DNA from: Rhodoplanes tepidamans
GTDB lineage: Bacteria; Pseudomonadota; Alphaproteobacteria; Rhizobiales; Xanthobacteraceae
DNA length: 64,000 nt
NCBI RefSeq assembly: GCF_030813915.1
Contig: NZ_JAUSUJ010000001.1
Span: 248,001 to 312,000 of the forward strand
Direction of reading: 5' to 3'
Made by a program: the position numbers and the translations under genes. Shown in pieces: positions 8,519 through 42,768 of this stretch. The notes under the pieces are model-generated. The model did no database searches, was not told where the DNA came from, and worked only from the letters and a program-made list of their open reading frames with translations. How positions within the stretch are numbered: position 1 is the stretch's first letter; each line of letters opens with the position of its first letter.

Positions 8519-8535
8519 GCGGCACGAAGCGCGAG

Positions 8536-8561
8536 CCCGCACGACGCCAGCGGCGTGCGGG
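8536..8561. terminator. Hairpin after cckA
   Basis: An 8-bp perfect stem (CCCGCACG at 8536 and CGTGCGGG at 8554) closes a 10-base loop 17 bp after the cckA stop. No T-run follows, so it may be a weak or Rho-assisted terminator, or simply an mRNA 3' end stabiliser. Confidence 0.45.
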
Positions 8562-8630
8562 TCGGGCGGACGCCCCGGACCGCGTCGCGCTTCATCCGGG
8601 GTCCCACGTCTCGAGGTCTGTCGCTCCATC

Positions 8631-8843: not shown

Positions 8844-8989
8844 GACCGGCTGGCACGCGACATGCTCGGAGACGCCGCCGCCCGCATGGAGCGCAGCGGA
8901 TCGCGGGGCGCGATGCTCCCCGATTGCGCTTCGCTTCATCCGGGCTGCAGGCAGGATCCCGGCGACAGGTGGCAGGCTGACGCGACACC

Positions 8990-9745
8990 ATGGCGAAGGA
9001 CGCTGAGAAGAAGCCGGCCAAGCGGCCGGGCGACCGGGCCGAGGCGATCTACCGGGCGCTGCGGCACGCCATCATCGAGCAGGCGCTCGAGCCCGGCGCC
9101 AAGCTGCCCGAGGACGCCATCGGCGAGCGCTTCGGGGCGAGCCGCACCATCGTGCGCCATGCGCTCGGCCGGCTCGCCGCCGAGGGGCTGGTCGAGCTGC
9201 GCCGCAACCGCGGCGCCGCCGTCGCCACCCCGGGCTGGGACCAGGCCGGCGACCTGTTCGACATCCGGCTCGGGCTGGAGCGCCTGGTCGTCACCCGGCT
9301 CGCCGGCCGCCTGACACCGGCCCAGATCGCCACCCTCGAGGCGCATGTCGCGGAGGAGGAGCTTTCACGCGGCACCGACGAGCGGCGGTCGATCCGGCTC
9401 GCCACCGAGTTCCACGTCGTGCTCGCCGAGATGACGGGCAGCGAGGTGCTGGTCCGCTACGTGTCCGAGATCGCTCTGCGCTGCGGCCTGATCCTGGCCC
9501 TCTACGCGCGGCCGCACTCCTCGGAATGCGCGGTCAGCGAGCACCGCGCCGTCATCGCGGCGCTGGCGGAGGGCGACGCGGAGGCGGCGATCGCCGTGAT
9601 GGACCAGCATCTCGGCGCCGTGATGGACCGCGCCCTGATCGTCCCGCGCCCGACCAAGGAGCGCGACATCAAGGCGATCCTGGCGCCCTACGCGGACGAA
9701 GCGCCGGCCGGCGTGCGGCGGGCGAAGGGGGCGCGGAAGCGGTGA
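8990..9745 (+). CDS. GntR-family (FCD-type) transcriptional regulator
   Basis: This is a ligand-responsive repressor/activator. An N-terminal winged helix (about 15-80) contains PEDAIGERFGASRTIVRHAL and GLVELRRNRGAAV. It is followed by an all-helical FCD effector domain with the metal-site-like histidines of EFHVVLAEMTG and SEHRAVIAALAEGD. At 251 residues its length is normal. Genes of this class usually control an adjacent transport/catabolic operon. The following SnoaL gene, ABC transporter and amidohydrolase are the likely targets, and a TGTATACA palindrome at 10528 is a candidate operator. Confidence 0.88.
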   Translation: MAKDAEKKPAKRPGDRAEAIYRALRHAIIEQALEPGAKLPEDAIGERFGASRTIVRHALGRLAAEGLVELRRNRGAAVATPGWDQAGDLFDIRLGLERLVVTRLAGRLTPAQIATLEAHVAEEELSRGTDERRSIRLATEFHVVLAEMTGSEVLVRYVSEIALRCGLILALYARPHSSECAVSEHRAVIAALAEGDAEAAIAVMDQHLGAVMDRALIVPRPTKERDIKAILAPYADEAPAGVRRAKGARKR

Positions 9746-27838: not shown

Positions 27839-28909
27839 TCACGCCGGCCCGGAGACGGCCGAGAGGGCGGCCCGCCGCTTTCGCACGGCGCGATTCGGCC
27901 CGGCCGCCACCGCCGTGGGCGCCTCGCGCCGCGGTGCCGCGGCCGGAGCCGGCGTCGCCACCTTGAGGGCGAAGTAGTCGATCGTCGAGCGCAGCCCCTG
28001 CTCGAGCGGGATGCTGGGCTGCCAGCCCAGCGCCTGCGCGGCCGCCCCGATCTCCGGCTTGCGGCGGCGCGGATCGTCCTGCGGCAGTGGATGGTAGGCG
28101 AGGCGCGAGCGCGACCCGGTCTGGGCCAGCACCATGTGGGCGATCTCCTTGACCGTCACCTCGCGCGGATTGCCCAGATTGATCGGCCCGGTCACCTGGT
28201 CGTCGCTCTCCATCAAGAGCTCGAGGCCGTTCAGCAGGTCCTCGACATAGCAGAACGAGCGGGTCTGCGAGCCGTCGCCGTACAGCGTGATCGGCTTGTT
28301 GCGCAGCGCCTGCACGACGAAATTGGAGATCACCCGGCCGTCGTTCTCCAGCATGCGCGGACCGTAGGTGTTGAAGATGCGCGCTACCTTGACGGCGACG
28401 CCGTGCATGCGCCGATAGTCGAAGAACAGCGCCTCGGCGCAGCGCTTGCCCTCGTCGTAGCAGGCGCGCGGGCCGATCGGGTTGACGCTGCCCCGATAGC
28501 TCTCCGGCTGCGGATGGATCTCCGGGTCGCCGTAGACCTCGCTGGTCGAGGCCTGCAGCACCCGTGCGCCGGTCGAGCGAGCGAGCTCCAGCACGTGGAG
28601 GGCCCCGAGCACGCAGGTCTTCACGGTGCCGATCGGATCGGTCTGGTAATGCGGCGGCGAGGCCGGGCAGGCGAGATTGTAGATGCGGTCGACCGGGCCG
28701 CCGATGTCGAGCGGCTCGCGCACGTCGGCCTCGGCGAAGCTGAAGTTGCGGTGATTGAGCAGCGGCCGGACGTTGTCGAAACGGCCGGTGTGCAGATTGT
28801 CGACGCAGGTCACCATGTGCCCCTTCTGGACGAGCCGGTCGCACAGGTGGGAGCCGATGAATCCGGCGCCGCCGGTCACGACGATGTTCAGCTTTCCGAT
28901 CACGGGCAC
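27839..28909 (-). CDS. UDP-glucuronate decarboxylase (UDP-xylose synthase)-like SDR
   Basis: This enzyme makes UDP-xylose from UDP-glucuronate. The 356-residue protein has the NAD motif VVTGGAGFIGSHLCDRL and the diagnostic UXS stretches YNLACPASPPHYQTDPI and STSEVYGDPEIHPQPESY. It also has PRACYDEGKR with the YxxxK dyad and ARIFNTYGPRM. A GTG at 28909 following AAGGGAGACC is the best start; the frame also runs to an unsupported ATG at 28993. It has an Ala/Arg-rich C-terminal tail of about 40 residues. It is the last gene of the leftward glycan cluster, 129 bp after its neighbour. Confidence 0.9.
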   Translation of the reverse strand: MPVIGKLNIVVTGGAGFIGSHLCDRLVQKGHMVTCVDNLHTGRFDNVRPLLNHRNFSFAEADVREPLDIGGPVDRIYNLACPASPPHYQTDPIGTVKTCVLGALHVLELARSTGARVLQASTSEVYGDPEIHPQPESYRGSVNPIGPRACYDEGKRCAEALFFDYRRMHGVAVKVARIFNTYGPRMLENDGRVISNFVVQALRNKPITLYGDGSQTRSFCYVEDLLNGLELLMESDDQVTGPINLGNPREVTVKEIAHMVLAQTGSRSRLAYHPLPQDDPRRRKPEIGAAAQALGWQPSIPLEQGLRSTIDYFALKVATPAPAAAPRREAPTAVAAGPNRAVRKRRAALSAVSGPA

Positions 28910-29038
28910 GCGTGGTCTCCCTTCCTGTTCTTGTCGTGGTGTCGCTGCCGATCGGCCGTGTCGCTCGCCGAGATCGGTCCTGCGCGACGGCACACTGGGT
29001 ACAAACCTCGTCCCGTTCGCCGGTTCCTGATCACGTCA

Positions 29039-30154
29039 TCAGGCCACCGCGCCGACCCCGACCCGCGGGGCGTCACGCCGGGTCCTCGCCGCCGCCGCCT
29101 CCGCGTAGTGCTCCTCCAGCGCACGGGCGCGCTCGCGCGCCGTGTGGCAGGCGAGCGTGCGCCGGCGCGCCGCCGCGGCGATGTCGCGCCGCCTGTCCTC
29201 CGGCATCTCGCGGATGATCGCCACCGCCTGCTCGGTCGAGTCGGCGATCAGGATCTCGGTGCCGGGCGTGTAGAAGCCGTCGAGGCCGGCCCAGCGGTCG
29301 GAGATCACCGGGACGCCGCAGGCGCCCGCCTCGAACAGACGCACGCTCGGCGACCAGCCGGCGGCGATCATGTCGGCGCGGGTGACGTTGAGGGTGTAGC
29401 GCTGGCCGCAGTAGAAGCGCGCGTGCTCCTGCGGCGGGAGGTGGTCGATGCGCTCGACATTGGCGGGCCACTGCAGCTCGGCCGGATATTGCGGGCCGGC
29501 GACAGCGAAGCGCAGCGCCGGCAGGCGTCGCGCCGGCTCGACCAGCAGGCGGTCGAGGGTGCGCTGGCGGTCGGGGCTGTAGGTGCCGATGTAGCCGAGC
29601 GCGAGGTGCGGAACGACGTCGTGCGGCCGGTGGATGTCGGGATCGACGGCGCAGTAGAGCGGCCGCGCCGCCCGCGCGCCCCAGGTCTGCTCGATCAGCT
29701 CCAGCACCGGGCCGCCCGTGAACGACAGGTAGACATCGAAGCGGGGGACGAGGGCCGGCGCGATGTAGTCGGTGACGCCGCGCTCGAGCCGCGCCAGCGT
29801 CACCGGCGTGTCGATGTCGTAGAAGGCGGTGACGCCGCGTGCCTGCGACGTCACCCAGTCGGCGATGGCCGCGCCGTCCGGCACGAAGGAGCCGAGGATC
29901 ACGAGGTCTGCATCGCGCACCAGCCCGGCATGGCGGCGCGGCAGATCCGTCAGGGTCCTGTACAGCTCGACCCGGCACCAGTCCGGCCGCCGCAGGTCGC
30001 GATGGTCGCGATACCACGCGACGTCGCGCTCCAGGAAGGTGACGCGATGGCCGCGCTCGGCGAGCGCCTTGATCAGCGCCCGGTAGGTGGTGGCGTGGCC
30101 GTTGCCCCAGGACGACGTGATGGACAGGCCGAGGACGACGATGTCGAGCGTCAT
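29039..30154 (-). CDS. CgeB-like GT-B glycosyltransferase (paralogue 1 of 4)
   Basis: The 371-residue protein begins with the cluster-specific motif LGLSITSSWGNGHATTYRAL. It has two Rossmann-like halves and the C-terminal glycosyltransferase segment NVTRADMIAAGWSPSVRLFEAGACGVPVISDRWAGLDGFY, like the CgeB/GT1 group. YCAVDPDIHRP and GYIGTYSPDRQ are shared with the paralogue at 39938. It overlaps the next upstream gene by 4 nt (ATGA), so translation is coupled. Donor and acceptor sugars are unknown. Confidence 0.85.
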   Translation of the reverse strand: MTLDIVVLGLSITSSWGNGHATTYRALIKALAERGHRVTFLERDVAWYRDHRDLRRPDWCRVELYRTLTDLPRRHAGLVRDADLVILGSFVPDGAAIADWVTSQARGVTAFYDIDTPVTLARLERGVTDYIAPALVPRFDVYLSFTGGPVLELIEQTWGARAARPLYCAVDPDIHRPHDVVPHLALGYIGTYSPDRQRTLDRLLVEPARRLPALRFAVAGPQYPAELQWPANVERIDHLPPQEHARFYCGQRYTLNVTRADMIAAGWSPSVRLFEAGACGVPVISDRWAGLDGFYTPGTEILIADSTEQAVAIIREMPEDRRRDIAAAARRRTLACHTARERARALEEHYAEAAAARTRRDAPRVGVGAVA

Positions 30155-31242
30155 TCCGCCGCCTCCCGGCCGACGCTGCGGACGCCGAGGCGGTCGAGCA
30201 CCTGGCGGGCGCGGTGCGCGTAGGTGTGGGCCGCGAGCACGCGGGCGCGGCCGGCGGCGCCGATCGCCCTGGCGCGCGTCTCGTCGAGCGCCGCGAGCAG
30301 GGACGCGACCTCGGCGCCCGACTCGGCGACCAGGATCTCGCGGTCCGGCTCGAGGAACTGGTCGATGCCGTCCCAGCGGTCGGTGATCAGGCAGGCACCG
30401 GCGCCGGCCGCCTCGAAGATGCGGGTCGGCGGCGAGAAGCCGTAGCGCGCCATGCTGGCGCGGTTGACGTTGAGGGTGGCGACCGACGAGCAGAAGAAGG
30501 CGTTGTGATCGACGCTGCCGACATGGCCGAGGCGGCGCACATTGGCGGGCATCGGCTTGTCCTCCCAGCCGGCGCCGCCGAGCAGGAAGCTCCGCTCCGG
30601 CAGGTGCGCGGCGGCGGCGAGGAAGAAGTCCTCGACGCGGGCCTCGCGGTCGGGCAGGCGGTTGCCGAGGAAGCCGAGATCGCAGCGCCATTCGTCGCGC
30701 GCCGGCACCGGGTGATGCGTCTCGGGATCGACGGCGTTGTAGATCGGCACGCAGGCGCGGGCGCCGAGCGCCATGTAGGCGTCGACCACCGGATCGCCGC
30801 CCCCGTAGGTGAAGACGATGTCGTAGCGCGGCACGGCGGCCCGCAGGTGATCCTCCGGGTTCGCCGCGACGGCATCGAGCGTGGCGGGCGCGTCGACGTC
30901 CCACCAGGCGGAGATCGCCCCCGGTCGCACCGCCTCCGGCACCGCGATCTCCAGCTCGCGGTCGAACACGCCGACGCCGCTCGCCTTGACCAGCAGGTCG
31001 GCGTCGCGCGCCGCCTCGTCGAGCGCCCGCTGCCAACCCGCCGCGCTGGCCGGGTAGACGACGACGCGCGCCCAGTCCGGGTCGGCGATGTCGCGGAACT
31101 GCTGACGCTGATAGGCGTCCGGCTCGTAGAAGACGACGTCGACGCCGTGCGCGGCGAGCGCCTTCAGGAGTCCGCGATAATAGGTGGCCGCCCCGTTCCA
31201 GTAGGAGGACACGAGGCTCGATCCGAAGAAGCGGAGCTTCAT
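30151..31242 (-). CDS. CgeB-like GT-B glycosyltransferase (paralogue 2 of 4)
   Basis: The 363-residue product starts MKLRFFGSSLVSSYWNGAATYYRGLL, here quoted only to show the shared SSxWNGxAxxxRGL motif at residues 11-25. It continues with VFTYGGGDPVVDAY, YNAVDPETHHPV, DLGFLGNRLPDRE and LNVNRASMARYGFSPPTRIF before GACLITDRWDGIDQF. It overlaps both neighbours by 4 nt (ATGA). It is probably cytosolic, as no membrane helix is seen. Its place between two sister enzymes suggests successive sugar additions. Confidence 0.85.
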   Translation of the reverse strand: MKLRFFGSSLVSSYWNGAATYYRGLLKALAAHGVDVVFYEPDAYQRQQFRDIADPDWARVVVYPASAAGWQRALDEAARDADLLVKASGVGVFDRELEIAVPEAVRPGAISAWWDVDAPATLDAVAANPEDHLRAAVPRYDIVFTYGGGDPVVDAYMALGARACVPIYNAVDPETHHPVPARDEWRCDLGFLGNRLPDREARVEDFFLAAAAHLPERSFLLGGAGWEDKPMPANVRRLGHVGSVDHNAFFCSSVATLNVNRASMARYGFSPPTRIFEAAGAGACLITDRWDGIDQFLEPDREILVAESGAEVASLLAALDETRARAIGAAGRARVLAAHTYAHRARQVLDRLGVRSVGREAAE

Positions 31243-32378
31243 GATGCGGCGATCCTGCTCGGCTCGGCGGGGGCGGGGGAGGCGGGCATGCGGTCTCCTC
31301 GGAGGGACGCGGCGATGGACAGGAGCTCGGCGACGCGGTGGGCGCAGGTGTGACGCGCCCGGATCGCGGCGAGCCCGGTGCGGGCGAGGTCTTCGGCGCG
31401 GTCGCGGTCGCGCAGCACGGCGGCGAGCGCCGCCGTCATGCCGTCGCGGTCGCCGACCTTCAGATAGCTGCCGTCCGGGAACAGGCCCTCGGCGTCGTCC
31501 CACGGCGCGCTGATCAGCGGGATGCCGCAGGCGAGCGCCTCGAACATCCGGATGGTCGGGATGCCGCGCAGCGCCTCGGCATAGGGCCGGCGCGGCACGT
31601 GCACGGTGACGCGGGCGCGGGCGAAGGCCTCCGGCGCGCGGTGATTGGGCAGCCAGCCGGCATACTCGATGCCGCGCGCGAGAAGCGCGGCGCGGGCGGC
31701 CTCGGGCCAGCGCACGCCGTGCACGCGGGCGGCGAGGCCCAGCGCCGCGACCGGCTCCATCAGGAAGCTCTTCAGCTCGGCGTCCCGCTCGCCGTCGCCG
31801 TAGTTGCCGATGAACACGAGGTCCCGCTCGTGCGCCCGCACCAGCGGCCGGAACAGGGCCGTGTCGGCCGCCTCGTGCCAGGTGAACACCCGGCGGCCCC
31901 AGCCGCGCTTCAGATACACCTCGCGCAGCACCTCGCCGAAGGCGAGCACGCCGTCGTAGCCGTCGAGGTCGAAGCGGCCGATCTCCTCCGGCGCCGTGAC
32001 GGCGCGGTGATGGGTGTCGTGGAAGAACAGCAGGAAGCGACCGTCGGCGGCGCGGCGGGCGCCGAGCGCGGCGATCAGGCCGGGCTCGTTCCACTCGTGC
32101 GCCAGCACCAGGTCGGCCCCGTCGAGGGCCTCGTCGAGGTCCGGGCCGGCAGCGTCGTAGCGCTGCACGGCGACGCCCGGGACGAGATCCGCCGCCTGCG
32201 CCAGCGCGTGCGGACCGCCGTCGGCGACCGCATTGGTGCGGCTCCAGCCCTCGGCCGGCTCGTGCACGGCGACGGCATGCCCGGCCCGCAGGAGCTCGCG
32301 CGCGACGCCGCGGAGGAAATGGGCGTTGCCGTGGTTCCAGCAGGATTCGAGCGAGTGGCAGAAGATCACGATCTTCAT
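31239..32378 (-). CDS. CgeB-like GT-B glycosyltransferase (paralogue 3 of 4)
   Basis: The 379-residue protein opens MKIVIFCHSLESCWNHGNAH, the most divergent version of the shared N-terminal motif. FFHDTHHRAV, DLVFIGNYGDGERDAELKSF and VPRRPYAEALRGIPTIRMFE lead to ALACGIPLISAPWDDAEGLF, the usual CgeB-type acceptor/donor loop near the C-terminus. It ends with a Pro/Ala-rich tail. It is coupled by ATGA overlaps to the genes on both sides. Confidence 0.85.
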   Translation of the reverse strand: MKIVIFCHSLESCWNHGNAHFLRGVARELLRAGHAVAVHEPAEGWSRTNAVADGGPHALAQAADLVPGVAVQRYDAAGPDLDEALDGADLVLAHEWNEPGLIAALGARRAADGRFLLFFHDTHHRAVTAPEEIGRFDLDGYDGVLAFGEVLREVYLKRGWGRRVFTWHEAADTALFRPLVRAHERDLVFIGNYGDGERDAELKSFLMEPVAALGLAARVHGVRWPEAARAALLARGIEYAGWLPNHRAPEAFARARVTVHVPRRPYAEALRGIPTIRMFEALACGIPLISAPWDDAEGLFPDGSYLKVGDRDGMTAALAAVLRDRDRAEDLARTGLAAIRARHTCAHRVAELLSIAASLRGDRMPASPAPAEPSRIAAS

Positions 32379-33523
32379 GCCACGGCCTCCGGCGCGAGCG
32401 TCGCCGCGTGCAGGGCCTGGCGAGAGCCGCCGGCGAGCAGCCGCGCGTAGAGCGCCTCCACGGCGTCGGTCACGGCCGCGAGCGTGAGGGCCGCGGCGCG
32501 GGCGCGGGCGGCACGCTGCAGCGCGGCGCGCCGCTGCGGGTCCGCCGCGAGGCCCTTCACGGCCGCGGCGAGGGCGTCCGGGTCGTCCGGCGGCACGAGG
32601 ACGGCGGCGCCGTCCCACAGCTCGCGGAAGGTCGGGATGTCGGCCAGCACCAGCGCGGCGCCGCAGGCCGCCGCCTCGGCGACGGTCAGGCCGAACGGCT
32701 CGTAGCGGGCGGGCGCCGCGACGATCTCGGCCGATCGCATCTCGTCGTGCAGGGCGTCGCGGTCGAGCCGGCCGAGAGCCGCCACGGCGTCGGACGCGGC
32801 GAGGGCGGCGCTGCCGTCCGGCGCCATCTCCGGACCGGCGATCCGCACAAGCCAGGGCAGGGCAGGGGCGGCCGCGACCAGGGTGTCGATGCCCTTGGCC
32901 TCGTCCCACAGGCGGCCGGCGGCGAGCACGACCGGACGACGGAGCGCCGGCCCGGCGGCGTGACGCACCGCGATGCCGTTCGGGATCACGACCCCGGCGC
33001 GCGGCGGCGCGTAGAGGGCGGCGATCTCGTCGCGGAACGCGCGGGTCGGCGCCGCCCAGGCGTCCGCCGCGGCGAGCCCCGCCGCGACGTTCGCCATGTA
33101 GGTCCGCCAGCGCGGCTCGTCGGGCTCGCCGCCCCGGCAGGCGCGCCACCACGAGCGCACGCAGGAATGCGCCACCACCAGGGTGGGCGCGGCGACGTCG
33201 ATCGTCGCCTCGCGAAAGCCGCCGAGATGCACGACGTCGGGACCGAACTCGGCCGCGATCACGCCGAGCACGCTCCGGGCACGGGGAAGATCGCGACCCT
33301 CGGGATCCATCCATTCGAGCGCGAGGTCGGTGACGCGCAGCGCGACGCCGTCGGTCGCGGCCACCGCCGCCCGCTGGGCGGCGTCGGGTGCGGGGCCGAG
33401 CGTCACCAGCAGGACCCGATGCCCGCGCCCGGCCAGGGCCCCGGCGAGCGTCGTCGCGTAGGTCCACACGCCGCCGACGGCGTCGGCGGTCATCAGCACG
33501 CGCAGCGGGCGCGGCGGCCTCAC
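32375..33523 (-). CDS. GT4-family glycosyltransferase
   Basis: The 382-residue protein has a GT4 architecture: an N-terminal glycine motif (TADAVGGVWTYATTLAGALA), a C-terminal donor domain with VLAAGRLWDEAKGIDTLVAA, and the retaining EX7E-type motif ARYEPFGLTVAEAAACG. The start is a GTG at 33523 that overlaps the stop of the radical SAM gene (GTGA), with GGGAG eight bases upstream. The first ATG is 30 bases later at 33493. GT4 enzymes transfer sugars from nucleotide donors with retention. MshA, which glycosylates inositol phosphate, belongs to this family, which is notable given ino1 in the cluster. Confidence 0.87.
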   Translation of the reverse strand: MRPPRPLRVLMTADAVGGVWTYATTLAGALAGRGHRVLLVTLGPAPDAAQRAAVAATDGVALRVTDLALEWMDPEGRDLPRARSVLGVIAAEFGPDVVHLGGFREATIDVAAPTLVVAHSCVRSWWRACRGGEPDEPRWRTYMANVAAGLAAADAWAAPTRAFRDEIAALYAPPRAGVVIPNGIAVRHAAGPALRRPVVLAAGRLWDEAKGIDTLVAAAPALPWLVRIAGPEMAPDGSAALAASDAVAALGRLDRDALHDEMRSAEIVAAPARYEPFGLTVAEAAACGAALVLADIPTFRELWDGAAVLVPPDDPDALAAAVKGLAADPQRRAALQRAARARAAALTLAAVTDAVEALYARLLAGGSRQALHAATLAPEAVA

Positions 33524-34806
33524 GCGCAGCACTCCCGCTCGAGCTCGGGCAGCGGCCGCGGGCGCTCCTCCTGGATGTCGCTGAAGCCGGCGAACTGGCC
33601 GAGATACCAGGCGTGCGCCCGCTCCCAGGCCTCGTCGTCGGGCTCGCCCCACAGGCGGCGGTAGTCGGGCGAGCCGGGATACGGGAACAGCGGCACCGGA
33701 TCGTTCGCCCAGACTCCGGCGGCCCGCATGGCGTCGCGCCAGCGCTGCACCGTCTCGTCGTCGTCCTGCGGCATCTCGATCAGGTTCGCCTGGACGAAGG
33801 GGATGTGCCGCTTGGCGGCGTAGAGCCGTTCGGCGAGCTCGTCGGTCGACAGCCGGCACTTCTTCGCGAGCGCGTCGCGGCCTTCGACCGAGAGGCTCTC
33901 CACGCCGGCCTCGACCGACCCGCAGCCGGCACGGCCGAGCAGCGCGAGCTGGTCCGGCTTCCACAGGTCGATGCGGGTCTGCACGCCGAAGGTCAGGCCG
34001 CGGCCGACCAGCCCCTCGAGCAGCTCGGCATTGGGCAGGAAGATCTCGTCGATGAAGTAGACGTACTCGACGCCCTGCCGCTGCAGGGCGTCGATCTCGG
34101 CCAGCACCGAGGCCGGCGGACGCCTGCGGTAGCCGTTGCGGAAGTTCTCCTTGGCGCAGAACGTGCAGCTGTAGGGGCAGCCGCGCGACGCCTCGACCTC
34201 GGCGCCCGGCCCGGCCGGCTCGGCGTCGAAGCGGTGATGATGGTGACGGTGGCGGGCGACGAACTCGTCCGGCCAGGCGAGCGGTGCCATGTCGACGAAG
34301 CACGCCGCCTGCGGACCGCCACTGACGCGCACCGTGCCAGCGTCGACGTAGCAGAGCCCCGGAACGCCGTCGCGCTCGCCGGCGGCGAGGCGCACCAGCG
34401 TCTCCTCGCTCTCGCCCATCACCACCACGTCGACGTCGAGCTTCTTCAGGGCGGCACGGGGCGTGGTCGAGCCGTGCGGCCCGACGGCGACGAGGAGCGG
34501 CGCGAGGTCGCGCAGCGCCCGCGCCGTCTCCTGCGGCACCCGCAGCTCGGGCGGAGCGCAGCGCCAGAACAGATAGGTCGGCGCAGTCGTGATCACGACC
34601 ATGTCCGGAGCGGCGGCGCGGACCCGGTCGGCGAGCTCGGCCAGCGACAGGCCGAGCAGATGCGCGTCGAGGATCGTCGCCTCGTGTCCGGCGGCGGCGA
34701 GGAGCTGCGCCGCGCAGCCGAGCTCGATCGGCAGGTGCGGCGCCCGGCAGCCGAAATAGATGCTGCCGTCGTAGCGCCACGGCGGGTTGACGAGCGCGAC
34801 CTTCAT
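33520..34806 (-). CDS. B12-binding-domain radical SAM protein
   Basis: The 428-residue protein begins with a cobalamin-binding-type Rossmann domain (VALVNPPWRYDGSIYFG, LPIELGCAAQLLAAAGH, VVITTAPTYLFWR). It continues with a radical SAM barrel carrying C210-x3-C214-x2-C217 in SRGCPYSCTFCAKENF and GCGSVEAGVESLS. It lacks the DxHxxG signature of base-off B12, so cobalamin binding is not certain. I recall that this subclass recurs in glycosyltransferase cassettes. Possible reactions include C-methylation or sugar rearrangement. It overlaps the epimerase stop by one base and the GT4 start by four. Confidence 0.87.
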   Translation of the reverse strand: MKVALVNPPWRYDGSIYFGCRAPHLPIELGCAAQLLAAAGHEATILDAHLLGLSLAELADRVRAAAPDMVVITTAPTYLFWRCAPPELRVPQETARALRDLAPLLVAVGPHGSTTPRAALKKLDVDVVVMGESEETLVRLAAGERDGVPGLCYVDAGTVRVSGGPQAACFVDMAPLAWPDEFVARHRHHHHRFDAEPAGPGAEVEASRGCPYSCTFCAKENFRNGYRRRPPASVLAEIDALQRQGVEYVYFIDEIFLPNAELLEGLVGRGLTFGVQTRIDLWKPDQLALLGRAGCGSVEAGVESLSVEGRDALAKKCRLSTDELAERLYAAKRHIPFVQANLIEMPQDDDETVQRWRDAMRAAGVWANDPVPLFPYPGSPDYRRLWGEPDDEAWERAHAWYLGQFAGFSDIQEERPRPLPELERECCA

Positions 34807-35921
34807 CACGCCACCAGGCCGCGGCGCGCGAGCTCGGCGGTGGCGTGCTCGACCTGGTCGATGGCGATCTCGGTCGACAGCCACTCTGCGAGCTCGACCA
34901 GCCCGTCCGAGAAGTCCACCTTGGGCGTGAAGCCGAGCCGGCTGCGGCTCCGGCCGACGTCGGCGAAGCAGTGGCGGATGTCGCCGGTGCGGTACTTGCC
35001 GGTGACGTGCGGGGCGAGGTCGGTCGCGTTCATCACGGCGGCGAGGTCGTGGGCGACGGACTCGATGCTGCGGCTCGTGCCGGAGCCGACGTTGAACACC
35101 TCGCCGACGCCGACGTCGGTGGTCATCGCCAGCAGGCAGGCCTCGGCGACGTCGCGCACATGCACGAAGTCGCGCCGCTGCCGGCCGTCCTCGAACACCA
35201 GCGGCGGCCGCTGGTTGAGCAGGCGCGCCGCGAAGATCGCCAGCACGCCGGTGTAGGGGTTGGACAGCGCCTGATGGGGCCCGAACACGTTGAAGAAGCG
35301 CAGCGCCACGGTCGGGATGCCGTAGGCGCGGCCGGTGATCAGGCCCATGCGCTCCTGCACGTACTTGTTCAGGGCGTAGATCGAGTTGAGGGCCGGACGC
35401 TTGGTCTCCGGGGTCGGCACCGCCTCGAGCGGAGCGCCGTCCTGGTCCTCGGGCTCCCAGCGGCCGTGGCGGAGCTGCTCGACGCTGCGGTCCGCCGGCT
35501 CGACGAGCGTGCCGTCGGCCCGCCGCGCCAGACCCTCGCCGTAGATGCTCATCGACGAGGCGACCACCAGCCGGTCGACCGGGTGGCGCAGCAGCGCCTC
35601 CATCAGCACGGCGGTGCCGAGGTCGTTGGTGTTGGTGTAGGCGGCGATCTCGTACATGCTCTGGCCGACGCCGACGGCGGCGGCGAGATGGATCACCGCG
35701 TGGGTGCCGACCAGCAGACGGGCGACGGTGTCACGATCGCGAACGTCGCCGACGATCAGCTCCGCCTCGCGCGACAGATGACGCGGGCTGGTGTCGCCGC
35801 CGTGAACCTGCGGATCGAGATTGTCGAGGACGCGAACCTGATAGCCCCGCTCGAGCAGGAGATTCGTCAGGTGGGACCCGATGAATCCCGCTCCGCCGGT
35901 AACCAGTACACGCTGCGCCAT
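34806..35921 (-). CDS. NAD-dependent nucleotide-sugar epimerase/dehydratase
   Basis: The 371-residue extended SDR protein has VLVTGGAGFIGSHLTNLLLE at residues 5-24, HLAAAVGVGQSMYE, the catalytic set SSMSIYGEG and YALNKYVQE (YxxxK), and RFFNVFGPHQALSNPYTGVL. The overall pattern is that of UDP-glucose 4-epimerase/dTDP-glucose dehydratase relatives; the exact substrate cannot be read. It lies upstream of the radical SAM gene (1-nt overlap) in the same operon. The GGGAGCAGCG sequence upstream of the ATG is an adequate ribosome-binding site. Confidence 0.9.
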   Translation of the reverse strand: MAQRVLVTGGAGFIGSHLTNLLLERGYQVRVLDNLDPQVHGGDTSPRHLSREAELIVGDVRDRDTVARLLVGTHAVIHLAAAVGVGQSMYEIAAYTNTNDLGTAVLMEALLRHPVDRLVVASSMSIYGEGLARRADGTLVEPADRSVEQLRHGRWEPEDQDGAPLEAVPTPETKRPALNSIYALNKYVQERMGLITGRAYGIPTVALRFFNVFGPHQALSNPYTGVLAIFAARLLNQRPPLVFEDGRQRRDFVHVRDVAEACLLAMTTDVGVGEVFNVGSGTSRSIESVAHDLAAVMNATDLAPHVTGKYRTGDIRHCFADVGRSRSRLGFTPKVDFSDGLVELAEWLSTEIAIDQVEHATAELARRGLVA

Positions 35922-36043: not shown

Positions 36044-37246
36044 TCAGATCGCAGGTCGCCAGCCGATCGCGAGATGCCGCGTCACCATCGCGGCGATGGC
36101 GGCGTAGGACGGCATCCGGCCGAGCGGCGCCGTGCCGGCGCCGTATGTCAGCACCGGAACCTGCTCGCGGGTGTGATCGGTGCCGGGCCAGGTCGGGTCG
36201 CAGCCGTGGTCGGCCGTGATCACGACGAGGTCGCCGGTGCGCAGCCGTGCGAAGAGCTCCGGAAGGCGGCGGTCGAAGGCCTCGAGCGCGGCGGCGTAGC
36301 CGGCGACGTCGCGGCGGTGGCCGTAGAGGCTGTCGAAGTCGATGAAGTTGGCGAACAGCAGGCCGCCGTCGGCGAGGGCGTCGGCGCCGTCGAGCGTGCG
36401 GTCGAGCAGCGCCGCGTTGCCGCTCGCCGGCCATTCGCGGCCGGTGCTCCGGTGCGCGAAGATGTCGCCGATCTTGCCGACCGTGATCACGTCGCGGCCG
36501 GCGGCCTCGGCCGCGTCGAGCATGGTCGCGGCGGGCGGCGGCACCGCGAGGTCCTTGCGGTTGCCGGTGCGCACGAAGCCGTCCCGCGTCGCCCCGGTGA
36601 AGGGCCGTGCGATCACCCGGCCGACGGTCAGCGGGTCGACGAGGCGGCGGGCGACGCGGCACACCGCGTAGAGACGGTCGAGCCCGAACGCCTCCTCGTG
36701 CGCGGCGATCTGGAAGACGCTGTCGGCCGAGGTGTAGCAGATCGGCCTGCCGGTGCGGACGTGCTCCTCGCCGAGCGCCGCGATGATCTCGGTGCCCGAC
36801 GCATGGCAGTCGCCCAGGATGCCGGGAAGATCCGCCTCGCGACACAGGGCGGCGACGAGGTCCGGCGGGAAGCTCGGCATGGTCTTCGGGAAGTAGCCCC
36901 AGTCGAACGTCACCGGGCAGCCGGCGATCTCCCAGTGGCCGGACGGCGTGTCCTTGCCGCGCGAGGTCTCGGCGGCGCAGCCGAATCCGCCGGCCGGCGT
37001 ACCGCCGTCCGCCAGTCCGGGCGGCACCCGGCCGGTGGCGAGCCGGCAGGCTTCGCCGAGGCCGAGCCGCGCCAGGTTCGGCAGCGCCAGCGGCCCGGTC
37101 CGCAGGCCGGGGCGATCCGCGGCGCCGCGCGCGCAGGCCTCGGCGATGTGGCCGACCGTGTCGGCGCCGGCGTCGCCGTAGCGGGCGGCGTCCGGTGCGC
37201 CGCCGATGCCGACCGAATCCAGGACCAGGACGAAGGCGCGGGGCAT
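36044..37246 (-). CDS. deoB: Phosphopentomutase DeoB
   Basis: DeoB interconverts ribose- or deoxyribose-1-phosphate and the 5-phosphate. The 400-residue alkaline-phosphatase-superfamily protein has [29 protein letters not shown], and the active-site Thr motif [12 protein letters not shown]. It also has [31 protein letters not shown] and [19 protein letters not shown] with metal ligands. The ATG at 37246 has GAGGAGCC upstream; a longer frame to 37312 lacks support. DeoB normally lives with nucleoside catabolic genes. Here it is embedded in a glycan cluster on the same strand. Confidence 0.95.
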
Positions 37247-37408: not shown

Positions 37409-38341
37409 TCAGCCGGCCGGGCAGGCGACGAGGGCCGGGCGCGACGGGCTGCGATGGGCGGCGTAGCGCGCGATCATGGCGGCGCAGAAGTCGGCGAAGG
37501 CGCGCGGGTCGCGCGGCGCGCTGGTGTGGTGCGGGGCGAGGCCGAGATGCTCGGGCGTGAAGCAGAACGTGACGGTCACGTCGAAGTCGGCGAGCGCCTC
37601 CATCTGGCGGTCGAACCAGGCGAGCGCGTCGGGGCGGAAGCTGTCGGCCCAGGACAGGCCGGTGCGCAGATAGGTGACGCCGAGCCGCTTCATCCAGGCG
37701 ACGGCGTCGTCGAGGCGGTGGTCCTGATAGTGGAACCACTGGCACAGGCCGAGCGCCGGCGTGTGGCGGGCGAAGCGCTCGACCGCGAGCTTGGGCGTGC
37801 CGTCCTCGCGCAGCAGGCCCATGTCGAAATGCCGGTAGTAGGACGAGCCCTCCGCCTCCTTGTGGCGCGTCGTCGCCGGCCAGGCGCGCGGCAGGTCGTA
37901 GAGGCTGTACCAGTGGATGCGCGGGGCCTTGCCGATCAGCAGCTCGGCGGTGCGGTCGACCCCGAAGACCTGCACCTCCTCGGCTCCGAAGGTGGAGACG
38001 CCGACCTCCGATACCCAGATCGGCTTCGACGTGACGGCGCGGATCTCGTCGATCTTGCGCGGCCATTCGTTAATGGTCCACAGGTTCCAGTCGAGCGGGA
38101 AGCCGTGCACGGCGAGGACGTCGACGTGATCCATCACGCCGCGCTCGGTGAGGTTCTCGATGAAGCTCGGGTCGATCGGCGAGATGCCGCCGAGCACGCG
38201 CGGCAGCGTCGGATCGACGGCCGCGACGGCCTTCCCGGCCAGGATCGCCATCTCGGCGAATCTGCTCCAGTCGGGGTCGATCTCCGGATCCCAGTGCGAC
38301 TTGTTGTTGGGCTCGTTCCAGATCATCGCGGCTTCGATCAT
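37409..38341 (-). CDS. Glycoside hydrolase-like TIM barrel, apparently circularly permuted
   Basis: The 310-residue protein looks like a clan GH-A hydrolase (beta-xylosidase type) with strands in the wrong order. The acid/base motif WNEPNN (Glu10), normally on strand 4, is at the very N-terminus. VLAVHGFP (about 75-82) and WVSEVG (nucleophile Glu112, strand 7) follow, then RIHWYSLYD (strand 8, 141-149). Residues 199-296 resemble strands 1-3 of such barrels (LGLCQWFH, VTYLRTGLSW, DVTVTFCFTPEH). The start is well fixed by an ATGA overlap with the methyltransferase stop. No signal peptide is seen, so it acts in the cytosol. Confidence 0.8.
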   Translation of the reverse strand: MIEAAMIWNEPNNKSHWDPEIDPDWSRFAEMAILAGKAVAAVDPTLPRVLGGISPIDPSFIENLTERGVMDHVDVLAVHGFPLDWNLWTINEWPRKIDEIRAVTSKPIWVSEVGVSTFGAEEVQVFGVDRTAELLIGKAPRIHWYSLYDLPRAWPATTRHKEAEGSSYYRHFDMGLLREDGTPKLAVERFARHTPALGLCQWFHYQDHRLDDAVAWMKRLGVTYLRTGLSWADSFRPDALAWFDRQMEALADFDVTVTFCFTPEHLGLAPHHTSAPRDPRAFADFCAAMIARYAAHRSPSRPALVACPAG

Positions 38342-39141
38342 GACGGCTCCGGTGCGGTGACGGTCAGGCGCTCCGACGCCGCGCCCGCGTCCGGCGTCGC
38401 GCAGCGGCACAGATAGACCTCGGGCTCGGGGTGGGCCGCGACGGCGAAGCCGGCGCTGCGCAGCATCGCCTCGACGCAGGCGCGGTTGGGGATCCACCAG
38501 TTGGTCGGGTCGCCGGCGTAGCGCTTCTCGACGAAATGCAGCTTCGGCCAGTCGGGCCGGTCGAACAGGTCCGTCTGCCAGAAGTCGTAGTCGTCGGCCG
38601 CCTCGTGCACGGCGGTGCTGCCGCGCTGCATCGACTGGAAGAGCAGGAGGTCGCGGGCGACGTGGGTGCGGATCAGGTCGAGCGCCAGCAGCGGGTGGCG
38701 CAGGTGATAGAGCACGCCCATGAAGATCACGAGGTCGAAGGTCTCGCCGATGGCGCCGACCTCGTAGACCGACAGCCGGCGGAACTCGACGTCGGCGTCG
38801 CACACCTCGGCGGCGAAGCGGGCCTGCGCCAGGTAGTCCTCGTCGGAGTCGATGCCGAGCACCCGCGCGGCGCCGCGACGCTTCATCTCGATGGAATAGA
38901 AGCCGCCGTTGCAGCCGATGTCGAGCACGCTCTTGCCGGCGAGGTCGGCCGGCACGGCATGCGCGAAGCCCTTCCACTTCACGGCCGGATAGTCGCCGAG
39001 GAAATGGTCGGGCGCGGTCCTCACCCCGCCGAGATCGAGATTGTGGAACCAGGGCCCGAGCGCGCGGACCCGGGCCGCGATCGCCTCCGGGGTCAGCCGG
39101 GTCCGGGCGCGGATCGCCGTCGTCGATGCGGGTGGGGTCAT
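38338..39141 (-). CDS. SAM-dependent methyltransferase (CmoB/Rta_06860-like)
   Basis: The 267-residue class I methyltransferase has motif I VLDIGCNGGFYSIEMKRRGA and the acidic post-motif GIDSDEDYLAQA. FDLVIFMGVLYHLRHPLLALD and the N-terminal WFHNLDLGGVRTAPDHFLG are features shared with CmoB-like enzymes. From memory, a TIGRFAM family named after Rta_06860 describes such proteins in glycan cassettes; I could not check this. It is coupled by ATGA overlaps to both the nucleotidyltransferase and the glycoside hydrolase. It probably methylates a sugar intermediate. Confidence 0.87.
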   Translation of the reverse strand: MTPPASTTAIRARTRLTPEAIAARVRALGPWFHNLDLGGVRTAPDHFLGDYPAVKWKGFAHAVPADLAGKSVLDIGCNGGFYSIEMKRRGAARVLGIDSDEDYLAQARFAAEVCDADVEFRRLSVYEVGAIGETFDLVIFMGVLYHLRHPLLALDLIRTHVARDLLLFQSMQRGSTAVHEAADDYDFWQTDLFDRPDWPKLHFVEKRYAGDPTNWWIPNRACVEAMLRSAGFAVAAHPEPEVYLCRCATPDAGAASERLTVTAPEPS

Positions 39142-39935
39142 GGGAGGCGCGCCTCGCTGCTGCGGTCGCCCGCGATCCGCAAGCCGAGCGGGGGGGCCAT
39201 GTGCTCCGGCGAGATGCCGTCGCTCAGCATGCCGACCGCGGCCCGGTAGCCATGGACCGTGCCGACGTCGACATAGGCGGTGCCGGCCTTGATCCCCACG
39301 GCGCGGCCGCCGGCGGCGAGCCAGGCGTTGACCAGCGTGCCGACATACTCGTCGCCGCGGCCCGGCCGGCGCCACAGGGCGGCGAGCTCGTGGAACACCC
39401 GGCCCGGCATCTTGAAGGCGCCCCAGATCCAGCGCGAGCGCACCTCGCTCTGCTTGACGCGGATCTCCTTCACCCGATCGGCGCCGTCGAGCTCGACGGC
39501 GTCGAACAGCTCCGGCCGCTCGACCGGGAACAGCAGGAACGAGAGCTGGTCGTCGGGCAGCGTGGCGAGCGCATCGGCCGGGAACCAGACGGTGTCGGGA
39601 AGGCCCACCACGACGGGCTCGTCGGCGGCGATCAGCGGGGCGGGCCGGAAGATCGCGTCGCACAGGCCGACCGGCCGCGGCTGCACCATGTAGGCGATGT
39701 CGGCCGGCCCGTACGCCGCGCCGTAGTATTCCATGATGTCCGACTTGCCCGGCGAGATGACGAAGCAGATCTTGGTCGCGCCGCCTAGGATCATCCGCTC
39801 GACCAGGTACTCGCTGACGGCGCAGGGCCGCTCGCCGGTCTCGTGCGGGCGGCTGCCGACCGGCAGCAGCTCCTTGGAAAAGGCGAGCGGCTGAATTCGG
39901 CTGCCGCGGCCGGCGGCCGGCACGATGCCCCACAT
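39138..39935 (-). CDS. Sugar-1-phosphate nucleotidyltransferase
   Basis: The 265-residue protein has the GT-A-like nucleotidyltransferase signature GIVPAAGRGSRIQPLAFSKE followed by LLPVG, the substrate loop VGLPDTVWFP, and VDVGTVHGYRAA. It resembles RfbA/GalU-type enzymes that make NDP-sugars. The specific sugar is not readable; a pentose- or hexose-1-phosphate are both possible. It lies 2 bp after a CgeB-like glycosyltransferase and overlaps the methyltransferase by 4 nt. Confidence 0.9.
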   Translation of the reverse strand: MWGIVPAAGRGSRIQPLAFSKELLPVGSRPHETGERPCAVSEYLVERMILGGATKICFVISPGKSDIMEYYGAAYGPADIAYMVQPRPVGLCDAIFRPAPLIAADEPVVVGLPDTVWFPADALATLPDDQLSFLLFPVERPELFDAVELDGADRVKEIRVKQSEVRSRWIWGAFKMPGRVFHELAALWRRPGRGDEYVGTLVNAWLAAGGRAVGIKAGTAYVDVGTVHGYRAAVGMLSDGISPEHMAPPLGLRIAGDRSSEARLP

Positions 39936-39937
39936 GG

Positions 39938-41065
39938 TCAGGTCTCCCAGGCGCGCGACGGGACGGTGTCGTCCGGTCTCGGGGCCGTCGCGACGCCCGG
40001 CGCGGCCGTGGTCTCGATCAGGTGCTCGAAGGCGATGGCGCGGTGCATCGAGGTGTGGGCGGAGAGCACGCGCTCGCGCGCGGCGCGGCCGATCCCGGCG
40101 ATTTCGGCGTCGGAGAGATCGAGCGCGGCGTCGATGTCGGGCGAGTTGCGGGCGACCAGCACCTCGGCGCCCGGCGTGAAGAAGCTCTCGAGCCCGTCCC
40201 AGTCGTCCGTCACCAGGGCGGTGCCGCAGGCGGCGGCCTCGAACAGCCGGCCCGAGGGACACCAGCCCATCGTCGCCATCGCCCTGCGGGTGATGTTGAG
40301 GGTGAGGCGCGACGACGAGAAGAAGGCCGGATGCTCGGACGGGGGCAGGTGGCGCACGAACCAGATGTTGTCGCCCCAGGGGAACTCCTGCGGATACTGC
40401 GCCCCACCGATGAGAAAGCGCTTGTTGCGCCGCCGCGCTGCCGGCTGCACCAGGAACGCGTCCAGGGCGGCCTGCCGGTCCTGCGCATAGGTCCCGAGAT
40501 AGGAGAGGTCGGCGACATAGTGCGACACCGGCGGCACCCGGTGGTGCACGCGCGGATCGACGTGGCCGTAGAGCGGCGCGGTGCGCCGCGCCCCCAGCCG
40601 GGTGATCAGCTCATCGAGCGCCCGCCCGCCCGTGTAGCTCAGCACCAGGTCGAAGCCGGCGAGGCCGTCGGCCGGCAGATAGGGCACGTGCTCGCCCTCG
40701 CGCAGGGTGGCGAGCGTGACGGGGGTGTCGAGATCGTAGAAGACCTTCACGGGCCGCGCCGCGTCGAGCACCAGCGCCGCCGCGTCCGGCCCGTCCGGGC
40801 AGTACGAGGTGACGATGGCGACGTCGGCGTCGATCAGCGCCCGGTCGACCCGGGCGGCCTCCTCGGCGAGGTCGCGATAGAGCACCAGCTCGCCGTCCGG
40901 CAGCGCGGTCAGGTCGCGGTTGGTGGCGTACCACGGCACGTCGCGCTCGAAGAACACGACCTGGTGCCCGCGTGCCGCGAGCGCCGCGATCAGCCCGCGC
41001 CACAGCGTCGCGTGCCCGTTTCCCCACGACGACGAGACGGTGAGGCCGAACACCACGATCTTCAT
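39938..41065 (-). CDS. CgeB-like GT-B glycosyltransferase (paralogue 4 of 4)
   Basis: The 375-residue protein starts IVVFGLTVSSSWGNGHAT, nearly identical in motif to the gene at 29039, and shares FFERDVPWYATNRDL, YGHVDPRVHHRV, LSYLGTYAQDRQ and LNITRRAMATMGWCPSGRLF with it. AACGTALVTDDWDGLESFF is the C-terminal donor-loop region. It is separated from its three relatives by about 7.5 kb of other cluster genes. It overlaps the phosphatase gene by 4 nt (ATGA). Confidence 0.86.
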   Translation of the reverse strand: MKIVVFGLTVSSSWGNGHATLWRGLIAALAARGHQVVFFERDVPWYATNRDLTALPDGELVLYRDLAEEAARVDRALIDADVAIVTSYCPDGPDAAALVLDAARPVKVFYDLDTPVTLATLREGEHVPYLPADGLAGFDLVLSYTGGRALDELITRLGARRTAPLYGHVDPRVHHRVPPVSHYVADLSYLGTYAQDRQAALDAFLVQPAARRRNKRFLIGGAQYPQEFPWGDNIWFVRHLPPSEHPAFFSSSRLTLNITRRAMATMGWCPSGRLFEAAACGTALVTDDWDGLESFFTPGAEVLVARNSPDIDAALDLSDAEIAGIGRAARERVLSAHTSMHRAIAFEHLIETTAAPGVATAPRPDDTVPSRAWET

Positions 41066-41661
41066 GCCGCCACCCGCTCGTTGAGGGCCAGGATCCTGGC
41101 GCCCCACGCGCCCACCACCAGCGTGCTGATGCCGGCCGGGCTCACCTCGATACGGTCGTAGGCATCGAGCTCCAGGCCGAGATAGTGCAGCAGCGCGGCC
41201 CTGATCACGTCGCCGTGGCTGACCGCGGCGATGCGGCCCTCCGGATGGGCCCGGGCCAGGTGATCGAGCACGCGGACGGCGCGCTCCTGCACCTCGCGCA
41301 TGCTCTCGCCGCCGGGCGTGCGGGCCCGCGCGCGCTGCTCGTTCCACACCCGCCAGCGCGGGTCGCGGCCGATCTCCTCGAAGCTGCGGCCGGTCCACTC
41401 GCCGACGTCGATCTCGTCGAGGTCGGGCGCGAGGGTGACGACGGTGCGGGCCGCCGCGGCGATCGGATTCGCCGTCTCCTGGGCCCGCTCGCGCGGGCTG
41501 GAATGGACGGCGGTGAGCTCCTCGCGGGCGAGGCGCGCCGCGAGCGTCCGCGCCTGCCGCCTGCCGTCGTCGGAAAGCCCGATGCGGGGCGTGCGCCCGA
41601 CGAGGACGCGATCGAGAAGGCCGTGCGCGGCGTGGCGGACCAGGAAGAAGGTCGTTGTCAT
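41062..41661 (-). CDS. Histidine phosphatase (phosphoglycerate mutase-like)
   Basis: The 199-residue product has the catalytic LVRHAAHGLLD (RHG variant RHA), the second arginine in HSSPRERAQETA, the acid in LDEIDVGEWTGRSFEEI and the second histidine in AAVSHGDVIRAALLHYL. Such enzymes dephosphorylate small phospho-sugars and similar compounds. GpgP of mycobacterial glucosylglycerate synthesis is a family member. Placed 18 bp after ino1 and coupled to a glycosyltransferase, it may remove phosphate from a glycosyl intermediate or inositol phosphate (inference). Confidence 0.92.
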   Translation of the reverse strand: MTTTFFLVRHAAHGLLDRVLVGRTPRIGLSDDGRRQARTLAARLAREELTAVHSSPRERAQETANPIAAAARTVVTLAPDLDEIDVGEWTGRSFEEIGRDPRWRVWNEQRARARTPGGESMREVQERAVRVLDHLARAHPEGRIAAVSHGDVIRAALLHYLGLELDAYDRIEVSPAGISTLVVGAWGARILALNERVAA

Positions 41662-41679: not shown

Positions 41680-42768
41680 TCAGGCCTCACCGGCGATGAA
41701 GCGTTCGAGGCGGGCGTGCGCCTCGTGGTCGGTGAACTGGACGGGCGGCGACTTCATGAACCAGCTGGACGGCCCCTCCAGCGCGCCGCCGATGCCGCGG
41801 TCGAGCGCCAGCCGGGCGCAGCGCACCGCGTCGATCACGACGCCGGCGGAGTTCGGCGAATCCCACACCTCGAGCTTGAGCTCGAGATTGAGCGGGGCGC
41901 CGCCGAACCCCATGCCCTCCATCCGGATATGCGCCCATTTTCGGTCCTCGAGCCATGGCACGTGATCGCTCGGACCGATATGGATGTCGCCGGGCGCCAG
42001 CGGCATGTCGAGCTGGCTCGACACCGCACGGGTCTTGGAGATCTTCTTGGAGTCGAGCCGCTCGCGCTCCAGCATGGTCTTGAAGTCGGAGTTGCCGCCG
42101 AAATTGAGCTGATAGGTGCGGGCGAGGCGGACGCCGCGCTCACCGAACAGGTTGGCGAGCACGCGGTGCACGATTGTCGCCCCGACCTGGCTCTTGATGT
42201 CGTCGCCGATCAGCGGCACGCCGCGGGCGGCGAAGCGGCGGCGCCACGCCTCGTCCGAGGCGATGAACACCGGAATGCAGTTGACGAAGGCACAGCCGGC
42301 GTCGAGGGCGTGCTCGGCGTAGTACTCGGTCGCCTTCTGGGACCCGACGGGCAGGTAGGACACCAGCACGTCGGTGCGGGTCTCCCGCAGGATCCGCCCG
42401 ATGTCGGCCTCGGGCTCCGGCGATTCCGGCACGTCCTCGGTCAGCCAGCGGCCGATGCCGTCGAGGGTGCGGCCGCGCGCCACCGTGACGCCGAGCGGCG
42501 CCGGGGTCGCGAACCGAATGGTGTTGTTGGGCGAGGCGAAGATCGCCTCGGCGACGTCGCGGCCGACCTTGTGGGCGTTGACGTCGAAGGCGGCGGAGAT
42601 CTCCACGTCGCGTACCCGGTAGCCGCCGAGATCCGGATGCATCAGCCCCGGTACCGGCTCGTTCTCGTGCGCGTCGCGGTAATGGGTGAGGCCCTGGACG
42701 AGGGCGGAGGCGCAGTTTCCGACACCGACGATGCCGACGCGGACGCTCGGTGATGCGGCACTCGTCAT
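41680..42768 (-). CDS. ino1: myo-Inositol-1-phosphate synthase
   Basis: This enzyme converts glucose-6-phosphate to inositol-1-phosphate using NAD. The 362-residue protein is of the actinobacterial/archaeal type: [74 protein letters not shown] and [13 protein letters not shown]. The ATG at 42768 overlaps the stop of a six-codon upstream frame (ATGA). Inositol synthesis is uncommon in this bacterial group and marks the pathway as specialised. Confidence 0.94.

Follow-up and report, generated by a model that had tools for sequence, protein, structure and literature searches.

Evidence for a naturally circularly permuted glycoside hydrolase in a TIGR04290/TIGR04295 gene cassette of Rhodoplanes tepidamans, and a normal-order counterpart fused to an epimerase in sister cassettes

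In glycoside hydrolases (GHs) of clan GH-A, the acid/base glutamate follows an asparagine at the end of strand 4 of the barrel, and the nucleophile glutamate lies on strand 7. The nearest solved relative of the enzyme analyzed here, PslG from Pseudomonas aeruginosa (PDB entries 5bx9 and 4zn2), shares with it the catalytic glutamates and a sequence match over strands 4 to 8 but differs in its normal strand order, its longer chain (416 residues in the crystal), and its polymer operon. PslG is described as intracellular and as encoded in a glycan operon; its hydrolytic activity, for which E165 and E276 are key residues, is reported to be important for Psl production (PMC9075953). Naturally permuted (beta/alpha)8 barrels are described for the glucansucrases of family GH70, with the order N-a3-b4...b8-a8-b1...b3-C (PMC11046441), and non-permuted members of this family are reported as well (PMC9732880). 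A permuted domain order has also been described in the GH MalS (GH13_19); there, however, it is domain C that is permuted, while the barrel (residues 181-314 and 436-645) keeps its order (PMC10223318). Thousands of permuted protein pairs are reported in the CIRPIN study, in whose main text a word search found neither "barrel" nor "glycoside hydrolase" (PMC12667903). Within the open-licence literature, we found no permuted clan GH-A enzyme, met GH70 as the only naturally permuted family of GH barrels, and found no paper linking circular permutation with GH39.

The window, that is, the whole stretch of 64,000 nucleotides from R. tepidamans that was analyzed, carries a gene for which the original prediction had claimed a natural circular permutation, with the barrel opened between strands 3 and 4 (Table 1). 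No such protein is encoded by the plus-strand reading of positions 37409-38341. Counting on the translation bore out the predicted places of the motifs: WNEPNN occupies residues 8-13 (with E10) and WVSEVG residues 109-114 (with E112), and the segments resembling strands 1 to 3 lie C-terminal to them, with LGLCQWFH starting at residue 197, YLRTGLSW at 224, and VTVTFCFTPEH at 255. The start codon, too, is fixed as had been argued, by an ATGA in which the ATG of the GH gene overlaps the stop of the upstream TIGR04290 methyltransferase gene, and this start is kept in relatives. Among the best 80 of at least 581 confirmed relatives (permuted query; one genome per species, bacteria and archaea), 79 have ATG or GTG followed by A (ATGA/GTGA) at the aligned start of the window gene, and in L031, the 80th, the match begins at residue 2. 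An in-frame stop lies no more than eight codons upstream of the aligned start in 9 of these 80. The kept start and the close upstream stops together argue that no N-terminus has been missed, and the open frames with a start kept in 79 of 80 loci led us to reject a truncation, a frame error, or an assembly error. Both main segments of the protein are under purifying selection (dN of 0.02-0.12 versus dS of 0.22-0.50, dN/dS of about 0.1-0.3, in three comparisons). The C-terminal tail (13-15 codons) is less constrained, with dN/dS of 0.26-0.84 and a dN of 0.23-0.50 versus 0.02-0.08 for residues 196-294.

Table 1. Parts of the permuted GH gene and neighboring cassette genes, in window positions.
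Feature	Position	Strand	Basis or remark
Permuted glycoside hydrolase gene	37409..38341	minus	310 aa + stop
Residues 1-195, clan strands 4-8, with acid/base and nucleophile	37757..38341	minus	PslG and normal-order GH matches
Residues 196-294, clan strands 1-3 and helix 3	37460..37756	minus	PslG (weak) and normal-order GH matches
Residues 295-310, variable tail after helix 3	37412..37459	minus	Low pLDDT, high dN
E10, predicted acid/base	38312..38314	minus	Invariant in 49 rows; aligned with PslG E165
E112, predicted nucleophile	38006..38008	minus	Invariant in 49 rows; aligned with PslG E276
TIGR04290 methyltransferase, overlaps GH start by ATGA	38338..39141	minus	392.1 bits, cut-off 300; start by inspection
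Sugar-1-phosphate nucleotidylyltransferase-like	39138..39935	minus	Matches below model cut-offs; start by inspection
Glycosyltransferase-like protein	39938..41065	minus	No NCBIfam match; related to annotated glycosyltransferase genes in L108
Histidine phosphatase	41062..41661	minus	TIGR03848, 158.6 of 203.85 bits, below cut-off; annotated so in L108
Inositol-3-phosphate synthase-like	41680..42768	minus	524.6 bits, below cut-off 638; annotated so in L108
Presumed phosphopentomutase, between GH and SDR1	36044..37246	minus	Start by inspection
SDR1, NAD-dependent epimerase/dehydratase	34806..35921	minus	Start by inspection
TIGR04295 B12-binding radical SAM protein	33520..34806	minus	696.9 bits, cut-off 400
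Glycosyltransferases and UDP-glucuronate-decarboxylase-like SDR (gene group)	27839..33526, approximate	minus	Names from annotated relatives

Searched against the PDB with phmmer, the window protein matches PslG in two swapped pieces (residues 3-194 to PslG 132-332 and residues 203-294 to PslG 28-129; E value of 8.5e-6 for the whole sequence). A 49-sequence profile repeats the swap (4-185 to 133-320 and 200-296 to 25-131); taken alone, the match of the C-terminal segment is weak, with an i-Evalue of 1000 for the single sequence and 10 for the profile. With the same profile, residues 204-295 also find near-N-terminal parts of three beta-glucosidase chains, 9uct, 9gci, and 9gcj (E values of 0.11-0.57). 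A profile of strands 1 to 3 likewise finds a beta-glucosidase near its N terminus (E value of 4.6e-4), and since this profile includes normal-order rows, neither that value nor its hhalign score is independent proof. Normal-order relatives of the enzyme, described below, were compared as well. Residues 7-185 match the second part of a normal-order GH, and residues 196-310 align with the normal-order protein of locus L105 at a score of 152, compared with a mean of 31 and a maximum of 60 over 300 shuffles. When the window protein was rotated against four normal-order GH domains (local alignment), the score rose from 229-269 in the native order to 341-395 at the best rotation, near residues 190-195, while in a control with two normal-order proteins rotation lowered the score (native, 1165; best rotation, 1017). 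Profile-profile comparison of the two forms gave a probability of 99.8 over residues 3-190, which is the strand 4-8 part only. The window protein is almost certainly a natural circular permutation, opened, more exactly than had been predicted, between helix 3 and strand 4. Its chain would run beta4-alpha4 through beta8-alpha8 and then beta1-alpha1-beta2-alpha2-beta3-alpha3, with the old ends joined from helix 8 to strand 1 and the new ends lying between helix 3 and strand 4. A match to residues 204-295 at G000:C20 (E value of 0.027) was considered as a second copy and rejected; it belongs to a separate gene of normal length (455 amino acids), which resembles a GH1 beta-glucosidase.

E10 and E112 are invariant in all 49 alignment rows, and the normal-order rows (n = 10) likewise keep both corresponding glutamates without exception. 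E10 and E112 align with PslG chain positions 139 and 250, which, with an offset of 26, correspond to the E165 and E276 named above. The placement of the glutamates is therefore that of clan GH-A, whereas the strand order along the chain, 4 to 8 and then 1 to 3, departs from the 1 to 8 of the clan. No GH family of Pfam exceeded its cut-off (PF11790, 18.9 bits against 21; PF07745, 14.5 against 24), the sub-threshold matches spanning residues 3-117 only, and NCBIfam gave no GH match for the window protein. Three proteins of the fused, normal-order form were also scanned, and no GH family of Pfam or NCBIfam was over cut-off in them; the normal-order profile matches PDB hydrolases only at E values of 0.03 or above. 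Relatives are annotated as beta-xylosidase, glycosyl hydrolase, or hypothetical protein, and the first of these names has no support in this analysis beyond distant similarity. GH-type catalysis by the permuted enzyme is nevertheless probable. Family GH70 belongs to clan GH-H, and its clan and catalytic residues differ from those of the window enzyme; with no GH13 or GH70 family in the Pfam result or among the PDB matches listed, no sequence relation to GH13 or GH70 was found. The openings of the two barrels lie next to strand 4 and within one helix of each other, but GH70 is described as opened before helix 3 (PMC11046441), whereas in the window enzyme helix 3 stays with strand 3 at the C terminus. 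GH70 enzymes are, moreover, described as multidomain proteins with a signal peptide (PMC11046441), unlike the window enzyme.

The AlphaFold2 model of the 310-residue chain, computed from a shallow alignment of 49 rows (the other rows are 73-92% identical to the query), reached a pLDDT of 84.8 and a pTM of 0.86. It predicts strands at residues 2-7, 48-53, 75-80, 108-113, 142-145, 197-200, 224-229, and 254-259 with helices between them, that is, eight consecutive beta/alpha units in one chain, as in the single (beta/alpha)8 barrel of clan GH-A. A separate domain formed by residues 199-296, which would have spoken against the original prediction, is not seen in the model. E10 follows the first predicted strand and E112 lies on the fourth, which are the places of clan strands 4 and 7; pLDDT falls below 50 only at residues 155-159, 161-167, and 307-310 and at single residues. 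Foldseek, whose alignments follow sequence order, gave no good match over the full length but weak and mixed TIM-barrel hits (TMq of 0.22-0.43 in the first five), with a methyltransferase component at rank 1 and beta-glucuronidases at rank 2 (219 columns) and rank 3 (181 columns). Such a weak result would be expected of a permuted barrel, although it does not prove one. As a whole, a complete clan GH-A-type (beta/alpha)8 barrel enzyme in circularly permuted form is likely the best explanation.

The normal-order counterpart appeared in a whole-genome search, where genome G265 gave two matches in reversed order within one long frame; the frame encodes a 705-residue protein with a normal-order GH followed by an epimerase-like domain. 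All 10 loci of this fused type (L105-L107 and L157-L163) have the normal order in frame and are fused to an NAD-dependent epimerase (SDR2), and their identities to the two window segments are 33-35% and 29-36%. In a mechanical count, all 91 loci of the window's type (the window, L003-L082, L102, L108, L164-L170, and L172) are permuted and in frame. The two groups had been set beforehand from earlier searches, leaving out L104, L171, and shorter duplicate stretches, and strand order among the best 80 relatives is a biased sample, the query itself being permuted, while the whole-genome draws are unbiased. The original prediction had held normal-order homologues in the cassette against a permutation. 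These do exist, but they make up a distinct sister form of fused enzymes, whose segments are 29-36% identical to those of the window enzyme and whose genes lie in a different cassette version. Since none of the 91 loci of the window's type departs from the permuted order, the normal-order form serves as an unpermuted reference rather than as a refutation. On plasmids, 147 records match, 97 at 60-80% identity and 50 below 60%. Among 60 plasmid records listed, 21 show low identity (26-35%); for 17 of the 21 the match is split into two or three pieces, and 13 carry the annotation epimerase. Strand order was established for the fetched plasmid records only, of which L105, L106, and L107 are normal and L104 is frame-broken.

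Like the window, the fused cassettes (e.g., with WGF90846.1 in L105 and ACE94375.1 in L107) contain a TIGR04290-type methyltransferase, SDR1, and glycosyltransferases, together with a UXS-like SDR, the GH-SDR2 fusion, and, in 7 of 10 stretches, the TIGR04295 radical SAM protein. Their genes run in the order SDR1, GH-SDR2, radical SAM protein, glycosyltransferases, UXS-like SDR, and methyltransferase, with variations in L159. The fused enzymes also share WNEPNN and an E-x-G around the second glutamate with the window enzyme; they differ from it in strand order and in the SDR2 fusion, and their cassettes differ in lacking INO1, the phosphatase, and the nucleotidylyltransferase in 10 of 10 stretches. 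In the permuted-form stretches (n = 91, of differing lengths), INO1 is found in 76, the phosphatase in 67, the nucleotidylyltransferase in 51, and SDR2 in 37, and a second GH copy is absent from all of them. When the 160 bases upstream of the permuted GH were examined for the end of a preceding gene, this gene was the methyltransferase in 75 of the 91, the nucleotidylyltransferase in 6, and the phosphatase in 1, with none found in 9. The SDR2 of Azospirillum is 60% identical to the epimerase part of a Geminicoccaceae fusion. With both TIGR04290 and TIGR04295 over their NCBIfam cut-offs, the window carries the cassette that these families mark, for which we found no paper naming either family in the open-licence literature. 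The cassette is present in Sinorhizobium, Bradyrhizobium, Methylobacterium, Azospirillum, and others.

The two forms occur in an either-or manner. A GH of either form was found in 14 of 385 genomes of the class, the window's included: 8 permuted, 6 fused with normal order, and none with both. TIGR04290 was found in 16 of 385 genomes, apparently of the same draw (same size and handles), among them all 14 that bear the GH. In the other two, G358 and G422 (82-83% complete), the cassettes run into the contig start, the contig of G358 beginning where SDR2 starts, which is the place expected for a fused GH; neither has a permuted GH after the methyltransferase. Over three whole-genome draws within the window's phylum, with weak hits to other hydrolases left out of the counts, 25 genomes carry one of the forms (18 permuted and 7 normal) and none carries both. 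A search of viral contigs with the normal form gave one stretch that matched the pattern and none that was confirmed.

In a tree of 33 SDR2 rows, Sinorhizobium meliloti (L102) and Tianweitania (L080), both with the permuted GH in their cassettes, have unfused SDR2 that stand inside a clade of fused forms (supports of the nested branches, 100/97, 95/89, and 97/94). One SDR2 clade for all fused rows is rejected with a p-AU of 0.00019, a test in which L157, a fused row standing apart in the tree, also weighs; as the tree is unrooted, loss and gain of the fusion are indistinguishable in it. In S. meliloti, 20 residues of SDR2 precede the matched region and include an N-terminal LAAPA stretch. This stretch resembles the LAxP found in the linkers of 6 of 10 fusions (L105, L106, L107, L157, L162, and L163), a short likeness that is absent from the other 4 (L158-L161). 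In seven other unfused SDR2, that of L080 included, the nearest start lies 6-11 residues before the matched region. L102 (pSymB of S. meliloti 1021, 243009-271932) is a hybrid cassette: its genes are ordered as in the fused-form operon of L107, except that the GH domain is missing and SDR2 is unfused, and INO1, the phosphatase, and the permuted GH lie on the other side. For this region, a search of the open-licence literature by guessed locus tags, judged by title, found no relevant paper. We read the S. meliloti arrangement, together with the LAAPA stretch, as the probable deletion of the GH domain from a fusion, and by the SDR2 tree the S. meliloti cassette would descend from the fused form while carrying the permuted enzyme. 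The permuted enzyme thus seems to have displaced the fused normal-order enzyme in two lineages, the case for the second (L080) coming from the tree, because the linker likeness is not seen there. We infer that the permuted and the fused normal-order enzymes are interchangeable.

In the GH tree, each form is one clade, which makes a single origin of the permutation the simplest reading, and the branch between them is saturated at about 10 changes per column, so that it cannot be read from this tree which form is nested. Permutations are usually explained by duplication or by fission and fusion (PMC3320104); here, the permutation would have arisen by tandem duplication with loss of the ends or by fission and fusion. 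No duplicated or half-size intermediate was found, as a second copy of either segment at an E value below 0.05 is absent from the stretches compared, and L104 is the only locus with two pieces for one segment. We lean toward one old clan GH-A permutation that gave a freestanding enzyme, spread among bacteria with the cassette, and replaced the SDR2-fused enzyme in more than one lineage, leaving one linker scar, with a joint that is nearly that of GH70.

Two other accounts of the strand order were weighed. That annotators name relatives of the enzyme without comment, and that the sub-threshold Pfam matches are confined to residues 3-117, would suit a truncated or mis-started GH whose true N-terminal strands are missing and whose residues 196-296 form an unrelated extra domain. 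This account has next to no probability, given the start kept in 79 of 80 loci with nearby upstream in-frame stops in 9, the match of residues 196-294 to strands 1 to 3 of a normal-order relative far above shuffles, and the eight beta/alpha units predicted by the model. It is also very improbable that the fused normal form derives from an ancestral permuted one. Unfused SDR2 does occur on both sides of the midpoint root of the SDR2 tree, so that unfused SDR2 may be old, and saturation between the forms keeps the GH tree from showing ancestry, but normal order is shared by PslG and the beta-glucosidase chains and is thus the outgroup state, which concerns the order of the GH and not its fusion.

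Turning to function, the window protein has no signal peptide by inspection, and since the other form is fused to an SDR, a cytoplasmic location is likely; PslG likewise is described as intracellular, with its gene, like that of the window GH, inside a glycan biosynthesis operon. The permuted chain would fold to the same active site and act as a retaining (two-glutamate) cytoplasmic hydrolase. On the precedent of PslG we propose a trimming or editing hydrolase, which would cut or trim what the neighboring glycosyltransferases make, be it the glycan or its intermediates, in a role resembling that of PslG in Psl production; by this analogy, trimming of the cassette glycan has about even chances. 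The main rival on function is a transglycosidase that builds the glycan instead of trimming it. It would fit a cassette of glycosyltransferases and sugar-nucleotide enzymes, and GH70 enzymes, many of them permuted, are described as building alpha-glucans (PMC4919382, PMC9732880), but PslG, the nearest relative of known structure, acts as a hydrolase, and this activity matters for its polymer (PMC9075953); we regard the transglycosidase as unlikely. The SDR2 fusion of the other form might suggest an enzyme-holding role and hence a catalytically dead scaffold for the cassette enzymes, in which a permutation is tolerated because activity is not needed; with the catalytic pair invariant in both forms, such a scaffold is decidedly improbable compared with a working enzyme.

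As both forms occur in comparable gene clusters and never together in the 25 genomes, they make a clean natural experiment, one that addresses the origin of permutations, their effect on catalysis, and the helix 3/strand 4 joint as a possible preferred opening of GH barrels. The comparison further brings to light a hydrolase family that is unclassified and often carries the annotation beta-xylosidase, as well as its cassette in several genera.

Some local variations were seen in the cassettes. At 33520-35921 of the window, SDR1 adjoins the radical SAM gene with no SDR2 between them, and the stretch from Rhodoplanes elegans (L003) looks alike. Relatives of the presumed phosphopentomutase occupy the same place in several cassettes and are found close to the GH in stretches from Bradyrhizobium and Steroidobacter, too. 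In L167 (genome G524; 6952-9700), the glycosyltransferase operon closes, after its UXS-like SDR, with the methyltransferase and then the permuted GH; because of this arrangement, the place of the methyltransferase alone cannot separate the two cassette forms. One permuted GH (L110; G619:C1:3595083-3595970) has a single in-frame TGA inside the profile match. On the Xanthomonas sacchari plasmid NZ_CP010410.1 (L104, around 8000-8440), a normal-order GH region is split over two reading frames, and the annotated epimerase gene begins within it, either as a broken copy or through a sequencing error.
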